Source: Thermoguttaceae bacterium
Lineage (GTDB): Bacteria > Planctomycetota > Planctomycetia > Pirellulales > Thermoguttaceae
Assembly (NCBI GenBank): GCA_017447745.1
Contig: JAFSMW010000041.1
Location: 1 to 64,000, forward strand
Length of the DNA stretch: 64,000 nt
Direction: 5' to 3'
In this document: positions 4,869 through 64,000 of the stretch, one piece after another
Numbering within the stretch: position 1 is the stretch's first letter
How the letters are laid out: every line of letters begins with the position of its first letter
The notes under the pieces: model-generated
What the model saw: the letters and a program-made list of their open reading frames with translations, nothing else
Told to the model about the DNA's origin: nothing
The model's database searches: none
Translations under genes and position numbers: made by a program

Positions 4869-4973
4869 AGTGAGGAAATAGGGAGTAGGGAATAGGACGT
4901 AGAGGCAATAGGCAGTAGGCAGTAGGCAGTAGGAAAATTTTACTACTGCCTCTTGCCTACTCCCTACTGCCTA
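4869..4973. repeat. composite heptad array, two inverted halves
   Basis: The left half has units GGGAGTA, GGGAATA, GGCAATA and GGCAGTA (three in a row). After AAAATTTT the right half reads TACTGCC, TTGCC and TACTCCC, the inverted form, so the RNA can fold into a long imperfect hairpin. The last CTA supplies the stop codon (TAG) of aspS on the minus strand at 4971-4973. Confidence 0.85.
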
Positions 4974-13350: not shown

Positions 13351-13451
13351 GGCAATAGGCAAGAGGCAGTAGGAGATTTTTTCTCGCAACTCGCAACTAA
13401 GATGAACGCTTGCGTAACTCCTCACTCCTCACTCCTAACTCCTAACTCAAT
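13351..13451. repeat. composite heptad element
   Basis: GGCAATA/GGCAAGA/GGCAGTA units are followed by CGCAACT units, the linker GATGAACGCTTGCGTA (inverted copy at 34708-34723) and then CTCCTCA/CTCCTAA units. Four unit types share the 7-nt period in one element. It starts about 10 bp after the DUF2344 stop. Confidence 0.8.
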
Positions 13452-13592: not shown

Positions 13593-15143
<1,551 letters not shown>

Positions 15144-15168
15144 GCGGCAATCGTATTGACAAACAATA

Positions 15169-15218
15169 AGGGAACGGCTTTTCATCTCAACGGGAATAAA
15201 AAGCCGCTCCCTGTTTTT
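15169..15218 (+). terminator. Rho-independent terminator after RNase E/G
   Basis: AGGGAACGGCTTTT (15169-15182) pairs with AAAAGCCGCTCCCT (15199-15212) with one mismatch, and T5 follows at 15214-15218. Confidence 0.85.
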
Positions 15219-15236
15219 GTAACACTGCAATCGGAG

Positions 15237-16433
15237 TTACGATCTGGGATCAATCGGAATCAGACCTGCAACATCCATTGCAAACAGGAGTTCACGCAAG
15301 AGTGGGTTATTATCCATCTGTATATAATACGACCGTCCGTTAGGAGTGGTTGGAACGAGCATATTTTTTTCTCGTAACGATCTAATGATTCTGGTCGTTA
15401 ATTGCGAAGTGTTTGTAATTCCTTGATCAGCAAAGATGTCTTTAACGTCCGCCGCTTGAAACGGCTGTTTGTCAAGCGTATTCTCTAAAAGCCGATATTC
15501 ATTTGCCGAAATCGTTTTGTTCACCTTGGCTTGTTTTAACATGGGATGGAGCAAATTCGTTTTGACAAAATTATAATTTGTCAGACGACTGAGATTGTCC
15601 ATTTCTTTTTTCAAACCAGATAGCATGTATTCGCACCAATGCAGCATTCCTTCATCGTTGCCTGTATTAACGGATTCGTCCGCCTCTTCAAGATATTTAT
15701 AATATTCTTCACGAGTCGAACAAAACACAGCAGCAGGATTGACAATTCGTCCAGATTCCACGGCAAAGCCAGACCGAACCAGCATTGCATACGTAAACAG
15801 CCGCGCCGTTCGTCCGTTGCCGTTGGTAAACGGATGAATCCAAACAAAACGATGATGTGCAATCGCCGTTTTAAGCAGTTCATAACGAATCGGAACAGGC
15901 TTGGCAACGAAATCAAACAGATCAGTCATGTAATCGTTGACAGTAATCGCGTCTGGCGGACGATGTTCTGAATTTATAATTGCAACATTTTCTTTTCGGT
16001 ATTCGCCCGGGGTAAAATCACCCTCTTCGTCCAGCGGTACGCCATCCATCACTATTTTATGAAGTTGGCTGACAAACAGACGATTCAGGGGATAGGTTTT
16101 TCCGTTCTCTTCGATAAATTGAAGAGCGCTTAACAAATTATTGATTTCTCGGATGCCATAATTGTTTGAACGTTTGTTGTCAATTTTGGAATTGATGTAT
16201 TCCAGAATGGTTGTATGGTTGCCTTCAATTCTGGCGGTTGCAACGCTTTCGACCATAAACAGAACCGTTTGAAACTGCTTAAAAAGCGGTTCCGGCGTCG
16301 TTCCTTCCCAACGGTCTTGAGTTTGCAGCGAATTCAAACTAATAATCAATTCCGTCAATTCGGAATCGTAATTAGGCAAAACAAGTTTAATCGGCGTTCG
16401 AGATGGCACATTCTCCATGGAATTGGCAATCAT
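15237..16433 (-). CDS. class II Fic-domain protein with C-terminal winged helix
   Basis: A 398-residue protein. The Fic motif HPFTNGNGRTAR (His200 to Arg208) is complete, so it should transfer a nucleotide (usually AMP) to a hydroxyl side chain. The inhibitory helix motif [S/T]xxxE[G/N] is present upstream as TARIEG (Thr66, Glu70), making it class II and self-inhibited in cis. The C-terminal ~100 residues (SANEYRLLENTL to SREKNMLVP) look like a winged-helix DNA-binding domain, which suggests autoregulation. An alternative start at 16418 would remove five residues. No separate antitoxin gene is needed or seen. Confidence 0.9.
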   Translation of the reverse strand: MIANSMENVPSRTPIKLVLPNYDSELTELIISLNSLQTQDRWEGTTPEPLFKQFQTVLFMVESVATARIEGNHTTILEYINSKIDNKRSNNYGIREINNLLSALQFIEENGKTYPLNRLFVSQLHKIVMDGVPLDEEGDFTPGEYRKENVAIINSEHRPPDAITVNDYMTDLFDFVAKPVPIRYELLKTAIAHHRFVWIHPFTNGNGRTARLFTYAMLVRSGFAVESGRIVNPAAVFCSTREEYYKYLEEADESVNTGNDEGMLHWCEYMLSGLKKEMDNLSRLTNYNFVKTNLLHPMLKQAKVNKTISANEYRLLENTLDKQPFQAADVKDIFADQGITNTSQLTTRIIRSLREKNMLVPTTPNGRSYYIQMDNNPLLRELLFAMDVAGLIPIDPRS

Positions 16434-16483
16434 AGCTAAAATTCTTTTCAGAGAAAAATTTCTATAGAAACAACTATAGCTAT

Positions 16484-16510
16484 ATTATATATAAAAAATA
16501 ACGTTGTCAA
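16484..16510 (-). promoter_or_regulatory. putative fic promoter
   Basis: On the minus strand a perfect TTGACA (16505-16510) is followed by TATAAT (16484-16489) with a 15-bp spacer; TAATAT with a 17-bp spacer is the alternative. The expected transcript start is about 40 nt upstream of the fic start codon. Confidence 0.5.
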
Positions 16511-16513
16511 GTA

Positions 16514-16549
16514 CAATATCTATCATTTCGAAAAACAATATCTATCATT
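16514..16549. promoter_or_regulatory. two direct repeats upstream of the fic -35 box
   Basis: CAATATCTATCATT occurs at 16514-16527 and 16536-16549, start to start 22 bp (about two helical turns). A third partial copy (ATCTATCATT) is at 16628-16637. The position just upstream of the -35 fits a regulator binding side by side, perhaps the Fic winged helix itself. Confidence 0.5.
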
Positions 16550-16692
16550 GACAACTTACAAGACGTTTATTTATATAGGCTTATAAAATAAAAAATCTTA
16601 AAATAACTGACATAGAGAAAATCCAGCATCTATCATTTCCAGCGAGCGCAGACGTTAAAAAGACGTCAAACGCTCGTTGCCAATGGTCGTTT

Positions 16693-17154
16693 TTATTCTT
16701 CGGAGTCGGTCAGTCCGGCGTTGGCATCGAGCTGGCGGAAGGGTTCCAGCCATGAATTGAGCATATCGTCGATAATCGGGGCGACGTCGTCCAGATCGTC
16801 GGAATATGTCTGGTAATATAGAACGTAAATGGCAAACGGCGTTTTGAGCGTCTGTGCCTGAGCAACGCACGGAAAATCGAGGCAGTAGAAGTCAATTTCC
16901 CATGTCTCGAGAATAACGCCCGGGTTGATTTCCTCCAGCGTCTTTTCGATGTCGATGGACTTGTACTCCTCTTTAAGCGCCTCGGCAACTTCCTCAAGGA
17001 ACTCCTGTCCGTCGGTATGGGCGGGGAACCGGCGAATCGTCCACGTTATTTCCGTCGGAGACGTAACGCTGACGCCGTCGTCGTACGATTCGATTGTCCA
17101 GTCGTCTGGATATTCAAATTTGAAACCGTTTTTGTCGTATAATTTGTTTGCCAT
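16693..17154 (-). CDS. uncharacterised acidic protein, PsbP/DcrB-like
   Basis: A 153-residue soluble protein without a signal peptide. It opens LYDKNGFKFEYPDDWTIESYDDGVSV, the pattern of PsbP/DcrB (DUF1795-like) folds: a short strand, then YPxxW, then beta strands. It is acidic with an Asp/Glu-rich end. No catalytic motif is seen. It is the last gene of a minus-strand group after surE and the DAHP synthase, each separated by heptad arrays. The fold suggestion is weak. Confidence 0.55.
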   Translation of the reverse strand: MANKLYDKNGFKFEYPDDWTIESYDDGVSVTSPTEITWTIRRFPAHTDGQEFLEEVAEALKEEYKSIDIEKTLEEINPGVILETWEIDFYCLDFPCVAQAQTLKTPFAIYVLYYQTYSDDLDDVAPIIDDMLNSWLEPFRQLDANAGLTDSEE

Positions 17155-17234
17155 TGTTGAGTTGCGAGTTGCGAGTTGCGAGTTGCGAGAGGAGTAAACT
17201 TACTACTGCCTACTGCCTATTGCCTACTGCCTCA
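17155..17234. repeat. composite heptad element
   Basis: Four GAGTTGC units (17158-17185) are followed after a short linker by TACTGCC/TATTGCC units (17201-17232). It fills nearly all the space between the surE stop and the start of the next minus-strand gene. Confidence 0.85.
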
Positions 17235-17236
17235 AA

Positions 17237-18079
17237 TTACATTCTTTTCAAATACACGTCCGGATACGCTTTATCCGGATCTGGTTCAGCGGGCGGAACG
17301 TCGGTTGAAACTTTCAGCCCCCATTGCGCCATGGAATCCATATACCCGCGATCGGTCATATTGTAGTCCAGCGGGGTGAGAACGATCTTTCCCTCTTTGA
17401 GTTCTGTTATATCAGACCGGAATTCCGGCGGATCGTGCAGCCCGTTGGCGGCGCACCAGTAGTACGGCAGCCCAAAGGGACTCTCGCCGCGAATGAGCTT
17501 TTCTCCATACAGACGATTGTCCATCGGCGCAAAGGCGATTTCCGGCTCAACGCCGTCCAGGTACGCCTGAATCGTTCGGTTGGGCATGTTGAGGTTGTAC
17601 AGCCGCGGAGAGCCGGTTTGACGTTCCAGTGTCTGACGTATAATCTGAGCGGCGATTCGAGCGGCGGCAGCGTACAAGTCTGGAGCGTCTTTTTGAATCG
17701 AGACGGCAAACGAGGTCGCGCCGAAAAAGCGCCCTTCGATAGCGGCGGAACACGTCCCGCTGTAATGGACGTTGACGCCGGCGTTGAATCCGCTGTTGAT
17801 TCCGCTGACAACGACGTCGGGGCGCTCGTCGAGCAGGGCTTCAAACCCCATTCGGACGCAGTCGGCGGGAGAGCCTTCTATTCCCCAGCCCCAAAACTGA
17901 CCGTTGACGGAGACTTCACGATATTTTATCGGAGCCAGAAAGGTGATTGCATGTCCGACTCCGCTTTGTTCCATTAAAGGCGCGACGATTGCAAGGTCTC
18001 CCAGCGCAGCGAGTTCTTTTGCCATCGCCGCCAGACCGGGCGCGAGAATGCCGTCGTCGTTGGTTAATAGTATTTTCAT
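17237..18079 (-). CDS. surE: 5'/3'-nucleotidase SurE
   Basis: A 280-residue survival protein E. The N-terminal metal-binding sequence MKILLTNDDGILAPGL supplies the Asp8-Asp9 pair, followed by IVAPLMEQSGVGHAIT. The conserved VVSGINSGFNAGVNVHYSGTCSAAIEG holds the active-site Asn/Ser residues. It removes phosphate from nucleoside monophosphates and short polyphosphate. Length is slightly above the usual 250. The gene is enclosed by heptad arrays on both sides. Confidence 0.95.
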   Translation of the reverse strand: MKILLTNDDGILAPGLAAMAKELAALGDLAIVAPLMEQSGVGHAITFLAPIKYREVSVNGQFWGWGIEGSPADCVRMGFEALLDERPDVVVSGINSGFNAGVNVHYSGTCSAAIEGRFFGATSFAVSIQKDAPDLYAAAARIAAQIIRQTLERQTGSPRLYNLNMPNRTIQAYLDGVEPEIAFAPMDNRLYGEKLIRGESPFGLPYYWCAANGLHDPPEFRSDITELKEGKIVLTPLDYNMTDRGYMDSMAQWGLKVSTDVPPAEPDPDKAYPDVYLKRM

Positions 18080-28980: not shown

Positions 28981-30858
28981 TCAATAAAAATATATAGGAT
29001 CGCTTGACGCAACGCTAAATGGGTGCTGTTCAAGATAATTACGAGCATGATCATTATATATTCTAGCAATGAATTTTTTCTCTGCTGTAATATAAGTTAA
29101 CTCTATTTTAGCTTCATCAATGGTTACAGAAGTTTGAAATGTACCCATTTCTATTTCGATCCACTTTTCGCCTGTAATTTTTTGTACAATATTTTTAGTA
29201 GAACCATCGTAAAATGCACAGGCAACTTTTTTAATATCAAATGTTTTTTCAATACGTAAAACCGCGGTCAATTTACTCTTTTCCATCTGTTCTTCTAATT
29301 TTTTTACTTGATCTTCTAATTTTTTTACTCGCTCTTCACAGCTATTATCATTATTAGCGTTATTGCCATAATGACTTGGGGAATTTTTTTCATTTGTAGA
29401 TTCTTTATTTGTAGGTTCTTTATTTGTAGATTCTTTATTTGTAGATTCTTTATTTGTAGATTCTTTATTTGTAGATTCTTTATTTGTAGATTCTTTATGA
29501 GAACCCTGTTTGCTATTAATTTCATCAATTGAATTTTTCAAAGGATCGAATTTGTCATCAATTCGCTTATTAATATCTTCTTTCTGTTGTGTTAAGGCAC
29601 TAGAAAGCCTGTCAACTTTCTTTTTTAATTCATCCAAGGCGCCTTTTTGATTACCGCTGGTTTCCTTTGATTTTGAATCCATTTGATTTTTCCATGAATC
29701 TGTTTGCATTTTCCACGTACTGTAGTCTTTTTGAAATGAATTAAAAGCGTCTTGAACAGAACTTAATTCCTCACTAAGATTCTGATGGTTGGCTGCCAAA
29801 CTTTTATTAATCGCATCAATTGTGTAATACAGTCCTCCTCCCGTAGCACCGATCAACAGGAAGAGTAAAAACATGGTAATCCATACGCCTTTTAAAGAGG
29901 CTTTTTGTTTAATATATACGGGTTGAACTGGTTGTTTGGACATGGGAGAGTTGGTCATTGGATCTGGGATAGTTGATTCGACTGACGGTAACGGAGACAT
30001 TGAAATTGTACCAGAAGCGCCTTTGTTTACAACGCTATCCATTGAAGTGGGGCTAGGCTGAGAGATTGGATTTACGGCAGATCCTTTTCTCGCGAGAGTA
30101 ATCATATTTGATGTTTTGTTTAACGCCGGCAAAGGCTTTGTCAAATCAATAACAACATAGTCTCCTTGTGGAATGGCGTTAGCGCTTGGAGATCCTATAA
30201 CGATTCCACGCCATAAACAGTTGTATCGTTCCACTTGCGAGCTATAATAGGTGGAAAACGTCGCTTTCCAACGAAACGATGCTGGAATAAGATTAATTGC
30301 TTCTGCAAATAGTGGGAGTAGATCCGTTCCTGGATTATAAATAACGTATGCAGATTTATTGGACATTACAGATTCAGCCAGCAATCCCGCCCAACCGGCA
30401 TCGCCGGTCAATTGTTTCCAACGCTGACACACTTTAGGCGACTGTGCACTGTATGGTTTCAGAACCCGTTCTGGAACTTCGCGAGCTGAACCATTGTATG
30501 AACTAATAATCTCTCCACCTTGCATAATAGCCGCCGGACCGGCGCTGCAAGACGTCAATTCTCTTGATTGTAAAATGAGATGGGATGCCAAACGATTACT
30601 TCTGAGTGTATGATCAGCGCCAGAGTCTGCAATACGGGACAAAACATAATACGTTTTATTATCAGCACGGATTTGGAGATAAGACCAGCAAATTGGATTC
30701 TTTGGGTCTCCTGCTCCAAACAGGTGTGTGTACCCATTTAAACCGCTGACGGCGATGTCAATTGCTATGGGGAGTCGTTGTGTTTTAATGACTGTTCCGA
30801 AACCTGTTTTGCCTTCCAGATTATTCGGGCTTGACGTTGAAACAATTTCGTATGCCAT
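28981..30858 (-). CDS. GAP1-N-like / TM / coiled-coil protein
   Basis: A 625-residue protein. Residues 1 to about 230 resemble the N-terminal domain of GTPase-associated protein 1: GFGTVIKTQRLP, YYVLSRIADSGADHTLRSNRLASHLIL, and the later RWKATFSTYYSS. This domain is known from bacterial NTP-dependent conflict systems beside TRAFAC GTPases; recognition is from memory of the family. A Ser/Pro linker precedes a TM helix about 326-352 with basic residues on its N-side, so the C-part is probably outside. Then a long coiled coil, seven KESTN-type pentapeptides, a leucine-zipper-like helix (VKKLEDQVKKLEEQM) and an ~90-residue C-terminal domain of unknown type. Confidence 0.7.
   Translation of the reverse strand: MAYEIVSTSSPNNLEGKTGFGTVIKTQRLPIAIDIAVSGLNGYTHLFGAGDPKNPICWSYLQIRADNKTYYVLSRIADSGADHTLRSNRLASHLILQSRELTSCSAGPAAIMQGGEIISSYNGSAREVPERVLKPYSAQSPKVCQRWKQLTGDAGWAGLLAESVMSNKSAYVIYNPGTDLLPLFAEAINLIPASFRWKATFSTYYSSQVERYNCLWRGIVIGSPSANAIPQGDYVVIDLTKPLPALNKTSNMITLARKGSAVNPISQPSPTSMDSVVNKGASGTISMSPLPSVESTIPDPMTNSPMSKQPVQPVYIKQKASLKGVWITMFLLFLLIGATGGGLYYTIDAINKSLAANHQNLSEELSSVQDAFNSFQKDYSTWKMQTDSWKNQMDSKSKETSGNQKGALDELKKKVDRLSSALTQQKEDINKRIDDKFDPLKNSIDEINSKQGSHKESTNKESTNKESTNKESTNKESTNKEPTNKESTNEKNSPSHYGNNANNDNSCEERVKKLEDQVKKLEEQMEKSKLTAVLRIEKTFDIKKVACAFYDGSTKNIVQKITGEKWIEIEMGTFQTSVTIDEAKIELTYITAEKKFIARIYNDHARNYLEQHPFSVASSDPIYFY
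29391..29500 (-). repeat. 15-bp tandem repeat coding for KESTN
   Basis: The unit TTCTTTATTTGTAGA is repeated almost without change (six full copies from 29401 plus partial copies at each end), coding for KESTN x5, KEPTN and KESTN. Since 15 is a multiple of 3, copy-number change alters length without a frameshift. Confidence 0.9.
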
Positions 30859-34652: not shown

Positions 34653-34808
34653 GGGGAGTAGGGAGTAGTTTCATGTTTTTAGTGGTTAGTGATTAGTGGT
34701 TAGTACGCAAGCGTTCATCAAATTTTCAACTAACCACTTACAACTTACCACTCTCTAAACTATTCCCTATTCCCTGTTCCTTCCCATTCCCCATTCCCTA
34801 TTCCCTAA
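34653..34808. repeat. large composite heptad element
   Basis: GGGAGTA units, then TTAGTGG/TTAGTGA units, the linker TACGCAAGCGTTCATC, the inverse ACTAACCACTTAC units and finally TTCCCTA/TTCCCCA units up to the start of the next gene. The TTAGTGG arm and the later AACTAACCACT arm can pair. Confidence 0.85.
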
Positions 34809-49179: not shown

Positions 49180-51531
<2,352 letters not shown>

Positions 51532-62768: not shown

Positions 62769-64000
62769 ATGGATTCCTTTAATAATTTATTTTCAAGAAT
62801 AATAAACCCTGAGAATGAAATCATAACCTTTGCCGCTCAACAGGGCGATGCTGATGCTCAGTATCTTTTAGGTCTATTCTTTTTTAAAGGTGAAGAGTGC
62901 GTTCCGAATTTCAAAGAGGCTGTAAAGTGGTTCCGCAAAGCTGCAGAGCAAGGACATTCGGATGCTCAGAATAATCTTGGCGTTTGTTATTCTAATGGCG
63001 ACGGCGTTTCTCAAAATTTTAAAGAGGCTATAAAGTGGTATCGTAAAGCTGCTGAACAGGGAAATGTAAGCGCTCAACTCAATCTCGCCATTTGTTATAC
63101 GGATGATCAAAACGTTATTCCTGATTATCAAGAAGCGGTAAAATGGTATCGCAAAGCAGCTCAACAGGGACATCCCGACGCACAATTTCGTCTTGGTCTT
63201 TGTTATGCTAACGGCGATGGCGTCTCTAAAGATGGTAAAGAAGCTGTAAAGTGGTTTCGTAAAGCGGCTGATCAGGGACTGGATGATGCACAATTCTACC
63301 TTGGATTATGTTATGATAACAAAAAGAATGCAAGCGATAAAGATTATGAAGAAGCGGTAAAATGGTATCGCAAAGCGGCGGAGCAGGGGCATGGACAGGC
63401 TCAACTCAATCTTGCCAGTTGTTATGCTGATGTTTCGTTAAGCGTTCATAATTACCATGAAGCGGCAAAATGGTACCGCGAAGCGGCTAAACAAGGGATT
63501 GTAGAGGCGCAGTATAATCTTGGCGTTTGCTATATTTTTGGCTATGGAGTTACTCCCAATCAGAAAGAAGCTGCAAAATGGTTTCGCGAAGCGGCTGAGC
63601 AAGGGTTTGCCGAGGCACAAAACTGCCTTGCTAAATGCTATTATGACGGCGAAGGCGTTAAACAAAATTATAAAGAAGCCGCGGCATGGTACCGTAAAGC
63701 GGCTGAACAAGGACATGCCATAGCTCAATTTAATCTTGCCGGTTGCTATTATAGCGGCATAGGAATTGCTCAAAATAATGAAGAGGCGATAAAATGGTGG
63801 CATAAAGCGGCTGAGCAAGGACATGCTACAGCGCAATTCAATCTTGGTAACAGTTATTACAGAGGCGAAGGCGTTACTCAGAATTTTGAAGAAGCGGTAG
63901 AATGGTATTACAAAGCGGCTCAACAAGAGCTGCCAGAGGCGCAATTCTGCCTTGGCAATTGCTATTACTATGGCGAAGGCGTTAAGCAAAATTATAAAGA
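62769..64000 (+). CDS. Sel1-like repeat protein (3' partial)
   Basis: The frame is open from ATG 62769 (AGAGG 6 nt upstream) to the end of the window, at least 410 codons. No signal peptide. From about residue 22 there are at least ten tandem ~36-residue Sel1-like repeats of the form AEQGHxDAQxNLGxCYxxGxGVxQNxKEAVKWYRKA, forming an alpha-solenoid. Such proteins act as adaptors in signalling or protein complexes, often cytoplasmic or periplasmic. Copies are similar enough to suggest recent expansion. The C-terminus is not visible. Confidence 0.9.
   Translation, partial: MDSFNNLFSRIINPENEIITFAAQQGDADAQYLLGLFFFKGEECVPNFKEAVKWFRKAAEQGHSDAQNNLGVCYSNGDGVSQNFKEAIKWYRKAAEQGNVSAQLNLAICYTDDQNVIPDYQEAVKWYRKAAQQGHPDAQFRLGLCYANGDGVSKDGKEAVKWFRKAADQGLDDAQFYLGLCYDNKKNASDKDYEEAVKWYRKAAEQGHGQAQLNLASCYADVSLSVHNYHEAAKWYREAAKQGIVEAQYNLGVCYIFGYGVTPNQKEAAKWFREAAEQGFAEAQNCLAKCYYDGEGVKQNYKEAAAWYRKAAEQGHAIAQFNLAGCYYSGIGIAQNNEEAIKWWHKAAEQGHATAQFNLGNSYYRGEGVTQNFEEAVEWYYKAAQQELPEAQFCLGNCYYYGEGVKQNYK

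Follow-up and report, generated by a model that had tools for sequence, protein, structure and literature searches.

Direct-repeat boxes at shared spacings upstream of CccR-like fic genes: a putative self-operator

A fic gene in a 64,000-nt stretch of DNA from a Thermoguttaceae bacterium (contig JAFSMW010000041.1, positions 1 to 64,000; hereafter the window) is preceded by direct repeats set beside its promoter, which raises the question of which protein reads these repeats and with what effect on the gene. The intergenic region upstream of fic spans 259 bp at 29% GC and contains two identical 15-bp boxes, AATGATAGATATTGT, both on the minus (coding) strand, at 16513-16527 (box D) and 16535-16549 (box C), 22 bp apart from start to start. 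The initial annotation had described two exact 14-bp direct repeats at this spacing; exactness and spacing stood, and the length was corrected to 15 bp. The third, partial copy that it had placed about 80 bp beyond was recovered as box A, AATGATAGATGCTGG (16623-16637, minus strand), which matches 12 of the 15 bases and lies 88 bp from box C start to start (a gap of 73 bp) and 110 bp from box D. Boxes A, C, and D were kept across the genus and are regarded as putative operator boxes. A weak candidate for a further box, B, was located at 16600-16614 (minus strand), with 10 of 15 bases matching at a distance of 23 bp from A; relatives with four boxes have one at this place, and the match may be due to chance. 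In the 259-bp region, exact direct repeats reached 15 bp, as compared with a mean of 7.9 bp and a maximum of 13 bp in 300 dinucleotide-preserving shuffles.

On the coding strand, the elements follow in the order box A, gap, box C, box D, TTGACA, TATAAT, and the fic start codon at 16433. The −35 hexamer TTGACA (16505-16510, minus strand) is perfect, is the same in three same-genus relatives, and is separated from box D by two bases, in agreement with the earlier placement of the repeats directly upstream of a perfect −35. The −10 TATAAT (16484-16489, minus strand) follows at a 15-bp spacing, with TAATAT at 16482-16487 as an alternative at 17 bp. The promoter is near consensus; a sigma-70 scan alone was not significant in 15100-17300 (6 sites vs 4.6 expected). 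No inverted box pair (at least 10 of 11 bases) was present in the 280 bp around this promoter. An imperfect inverted repeat of 25 nt (76% complementary, 2-nt gap) occupies the stretch from the promoter to the fic start codon (16432-16483).

The gene on the other side of the fic intergenic region (16693-17154, minus strand) had no Pfam or NCBIfam match, and a pair of tandem arrays of 7-bp units (17159-17189 and 17203-17232) lies just upstream of it. Further short arrays of 7-bp units occur in the window at 4903-4933, 13415-13448, 34760-34807, and 50693-50722, with the unit CTACTGC shared by those at 17203 and 50693 and found on the other strand at 4903. The window also holds about seven copies of a 15-bp unit, ATTTGTAGATTCTTT, at 29392-29498 (97% matches), and 108-bp repeats at 62907-63279 and 63636-64000, the letters of which resemble what we take to be Sel1-type protein repeats.

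The fic gene itself (15237-16433, minus strand, stop included) is an open reading frame of 398 aa with an ATG start. Its product contained a Fic domain (Pfam Fic, E 3.9e-16), with the catalytic motif HPFTNGNGR intact at residues 200-208 (15810-15836, minus strand; alignment columns mostly invariant) and a class II inhibitory motif, TARIEG, at residues 66-71 (16221-16238, minus strand), where CccR of Yersinia has SARIEG. CccR (PDB 7xux) was the closest solved structure by sequence, aligned over residues 15-393 with the HTH included (phmmer E 6.7e-79), and also the top structural match of the predicted fold (Foldseek TM 0.80 by query and 0.88 by target, 34-35% identity; model pLDDT 83.6). This full-length match, in sequence and in predicted fold, bears out the C-terminal winged helix that the initial annotation had assigned to the protein. 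The domain aligns with the CccR HTH and spans approximately residues 308-376 (15306-15512, minus strand; limits approximate), with modeled helices at 310-318, 327-330, and 342-355 followed by strands at 359-361 and 368-371; of these, the helix at residues 342-355, TSQLTTRIIRSLRE (15369-15410, minus strand), is the likely DNA-recognition helix. Of the residues named for the dimer interface of CccR, in a sequence alignment counted by hand, the places of the salt bridge D22-K175 are taken by E28 and R183, and that of N13 by L19. By sequence and modeled fold, the window protein belongs with the class II, winged-helix Fic proteins and is a near relative of Yersinia CccR.

In each of four genomes of the genus, one box pair was found upstream of fic when up to two mismatches were allowed. 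One sister, with 68% identity in its Fic protein, shows the same change in every one of the three boxes, from AATGATAGAT to AATGATAAAT, with the spacing and TTGACA kept. In the window genome (4.35 Mb, 87% complete), the 15-mer had no other site within one mismatch, and 13 sites at two mismatches vs 6 for a reversed control pattern. A wider regulon was considered and rejected: outside fic, the four genus genomes contained a single two-mismatch box pair (in G003), and the reversed control pattern also matched once (in G002). Two further Fic-domain genes above the Pfam cut-off are present in the window genome, on contigs C147 (L010) and C198 (L071 and L073 being our entries for these two genes), and the boxes were absent at the C147 fic, which served as a control locus.

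CccR-like genes were patchily distributed: in the family of the window, 13 of 119 genomes had one at E 1e-30 (the window's own included), and of 392 genomes drawn from the phylum, the window's own alone had one at E 1e-50. Two of the same-genus relatives are public MAGs, one a Thermoguttaceae bacterium from goat duodenum and the other an uncultured planctomycete. Further CccR-like loci came from viral contigs, a Pasteurella plasmid, and one E. coli chromosome (one of 5,426 genomes), in which the gene lies beside phage terminase genes and encodes a Fic 39% identical to that of the window. With L053 as query at E 1e-30, three plasmid records and no phage were matched; with the window protein as query at E 1e-5, 17 phage records were matched, all carrying distant Fic genes. 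On a Photobacterium damselae plasmid (L042, 2471-3444), a CccR-like gene is annotated as two fragments and flanked on either side by transposase genes.

The upstream regions of 24 CccR-like loci were compared, reduced to 21 non-redundant ones by removal of three near neighbors (L011, L012, and L048) and of no others; many of these loci are unnamed or metagenomic, the IMG/VR contigs among them may hold host DNA, and related loci are not independent. Second copies were left out (L039 and L040, on the contigs of L011 and L012; L058-L063, L065, and L068-L070), as were L042, with its gene in two pieces, and L057, of a distant Fic clade. Controls were 23 of 24 fic loci of other clades, L036 being dropped for want of a suitable open reading frame, and as start codon we used the earliest ATG, or other start, in each open frame.

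Boxes upstream of CccR-like fic genes recur at 0, 22, 88, and 110 bp with letters that differ by lineage, and this geometry is what is new here. Counted as distinct loci, repeated boxes were found at 22±1 bp in 10 of the 21 non-redundant loci and none of the 23 controls, at 88±1 bp in 8/21 vs 0/23, and at 110±1 bp in 10/21 vs 1/23, while the intermediate spacings gave 0/21 vs 0/23 (44±1 bp) and 4/21 vs 0/23 (66±1 bp); in 200 dinucleotide-preserving shuffled sets, no spacing bin held more than three loci. Pairs at 22, 88, or 110 bp occurred in 14 of 21 upstream segments vs 11 of 331 other 280-bp segments of the same loci. On a four-box score with offsets near 22, 88, and 110, 15 of the 24 loci, or 13 of the 21 non-redundant ones, ranked above all of their 100 shuffles, as did none of the 23 controls, the geometry having been derived from a repeat scan of part of these same loci. 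The loci added after the geometry was seen (L064, L066, and L067) all exceeded their shuffles on this score. Four clear boxes are present in L064 (AAAAGTGAGATA three times and AAAATGAGATA once), in L066 (TGCAAAT four times), and in L050, which belonged to the original scan. As box letters, the window and two sisters carry AATGATAGAT, the third sister AATGATAAAT, L014 TGGCAGATAAT, L043 GTCAAATG, L044 TGGCGGATAAT, and L050 ATGCAAATA; GATAAT is contained in the boxes of several relatives and also in the CccR box AGATAATCAT.

In 9 of the 24 loci (8 of 21 non-redundant), the four-box score did not exceed all shuffles, specifically in L015, L041 (where 2 of 100 shuffles reach the score), L045, L046, L047, L048, L049, L051, and L056. 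Among them are the full sets from two genera, one of the window's family with four loci (L046-L049) and another with two (L015 and L045). Partial patterns were seen in several: a box pair 65 bp apart in L015, GATAAT twice at 65 bp in L046 and L048, pairs at 110 bp in L041 and 109 bp in L047, and in L056 GGCGCAAGTTT twice at 22 bp with reversed copies upstream; none of these patterns was found in L045, L049, or L051. Boxes in the weak loci may be due to chance.

We consider it probable that the repeats are operator half-sites for the winged helix of the Fic protein itself, bound as an oligomer at fixed distances and repressing its own promoter. Predicted self-binding is well supported by homology, because the close homolog CccR (YPK_0951) of Yersinia pseudotuberculosis is reported to repress its own promoter through the HTH (accessible text of PMC9755527). 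The earlier suggestion that the Fic protein may bind here itself thus gains ground, as predicted binding, from CccR autorepression, from the lack of a wider site set in the genus, and from a geometry seen at CccR-like fic genes and not at 23 other fic loci. From these comparisons, we infer that the boxes are bound by this protein to repressive effect, with A and C/D bridged by one oligomer. In the proposed mechanism, a class II Fic of the CccR type, dimeric or of higher order, would dock on boxes at 0, 22, 88, and 110 bp, the one at 22 being degenerate in the window genome; dimers, or a dimer of dimers, would fill the boxes and shut the fic promoter; and the promoter would be freed once the bound form, probably a dimer in an inhibited or deAMPylating state, has been titrated off or has come apart. 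By arithmetic, 22 bp of B-DNA measures ∼75 Å, near the 70.2 Å between the recognition helices in the CccR dimer, a mutant of which fails to restore repression (PMC9755527, accessible text). Since a twofold dimer alone does not explain direct repeats, either a flexible wHTH or bridging of A with C and of B with D by looping would be needed.

Box letters change between lineages at a constant spacing, which hints at a rigid protein assembly on the DNA. A bolder reading, which we put forward tentatively and hold to be on the improbable side, is that a rigid ruler of four sites (0/22/88/110 bp) is common to the promoters of CccR-like fic genes in several bacterial lineages, and that on it a Fic tetramer would loop or wrap the DNA and lock the safe dimeric form, the operator acting as both antidote and sensor of free active enzyme. 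The geometry yields simple quantitative predictions, concerning stoichiometry, spacing changes, and looping, for how an AMPylating enzyme may be tied to its own expression.

The position of the promoter bears on whether the bound protein would repress or activate. Among the 16 loci scanned, the window, L013, L014, and L043 have promoter-like hexamers downstream of the array; in L044 these stand at its upstream edge (the −10 touching box A), in L015, L046, and L066 between boxes, and in L054 over the start codon region; the simple scan found no promoter site in the remaining seven (L041, L050, L052, L053, L055, L064, and L067). A role in which bound Fic activates, or alternates between activating and repressing in the manner of AraC, is suggested by the pair just upstream of TTGACA in the first four of these loci, a usual position for an activator, and by the likeness of a direct-repeat pair plus a remote box to the AraC arrangement; yet the window promoter is already near consensus, the homolog CccR is a repressor, and the sites at the array edge in L044 and between boxes in L046 and L066 fit occlusion better than activation from a fixed place, such that activation appears unlikely. 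As the promoter varies in place against a fixed array, repression would be the easier explanation.

Whether the winged helix is the reader of the boxes was approached from the covariation of boxes and proteins. Box similarity was correlated with protein similarity at a Mantel rho of 0.41 for the catalytic domain and 0.32 for the HTH (15 boxes picked by eye); box similarity tracks the catalytic domain as well as it does the HTH, so the HTH is not singled out as the reader, and no covariation with the boxes specific to the HTH emerged. A search from DNA to protein recovered TGAGATAAT twice at 22 bp from seven loci in viral contigs, with a Fic motif nearby in one (L081, on the contig of L064); the pairs in L079, L082, and L084 belong to tandem arrays of 11 or 22 bp, and no Fic motif was found on the scanned strand in L080, L083, or L085, of which the pairs in L083 and L085 are perhaps targets of a similar regulator or chance occurrences. 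The same reverse search with a GGCRGATAAT pair gave no match. Box turnover that follows the HTH no more closely than the catalytic domain, along with TGAGATAAT pairs away from fic genes, would suit boxes read by another regulator with Fic not the binder. This seems quite unlikely: CccR binds its own operator, the genus has few if any further sites, and the geometry recurs at CccR-like fic genes of the window's family, viral contigs, and E. coli and not in other fic clades. An origin by chance, as an AT-rich artifact, or as a decayed tandem repeat, for which the low GC content of the intergenic region might speak, is very improbable in the face of the dinucleotide-keeping shuffles, the boxes kept in four same-genus genomes with concerted change, and the distant loci with the same spacing and different letters.

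Autorepression from a fixed array, the reading preferred here, can be set beside several known systems. At araBAD, AraC occupies direct half-sites about two turns apart beside the −35 and a remote half-site joined to them by a loop; AraC is an unrelated protein and a sugar-responsive activator. SoFic (PDB 3eqx) resembles the window protein in combining a Fic domain with a C-terminal wHTH, and the PADLOC SoFic defense model matches the window protein (residues 33-372, E 4.5e-48), but the protein scores 42.9 bits against the cut-off of 550 bits for the NCBIfam SoFic equivalog (NF046030), and DNA binding by SoFic is given as not shown in the accessible text of PMC10628234. A class II Fic system is reported to be active against phage T5 (PMC11514479, accessible text). 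CbFic2 of Coxiella burnetii (PDB 8cil) is likewise a class II Fic with a C-terminal wHTH that binds DNA, but is distant (19-20% identity in the fold match); in the accessible parts of PMC10628234, its specific binding sequence is stated as not known, its dimer state and DNA binding are tied to AMPylation and deAMPylation, and the same is speculated for CccR. The initial annotation had suggested for the window protein, too, that its enzymatic state may be linked to its own expression.

The closest comparison is with CccR, a T6SS effector, and the accessible text of PMC9755527 describes Fic proteins with a DNA-binding tail as widespread. CccR is the one Fic protein with a mapped self-operator that we found in the open-licence literature, and earlier mention elsewhere is possible. 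Both systems combine a class II Fic domain with a C-terminal HTH and have repeated boxes at their own promoter, with GATAAT shared by the CccR half-site and the boxes of several relatives. They differ in the layout of the operator: the CccR footprint, AGATAATCAT-N26-ATGATAATCT, is one inverted repeat with a 26-bp spacer (PMC9755527, accessible text), whereas the window has three clear boxes (four in some relatives), all direct and placed on the 0/22/88/110 grid.
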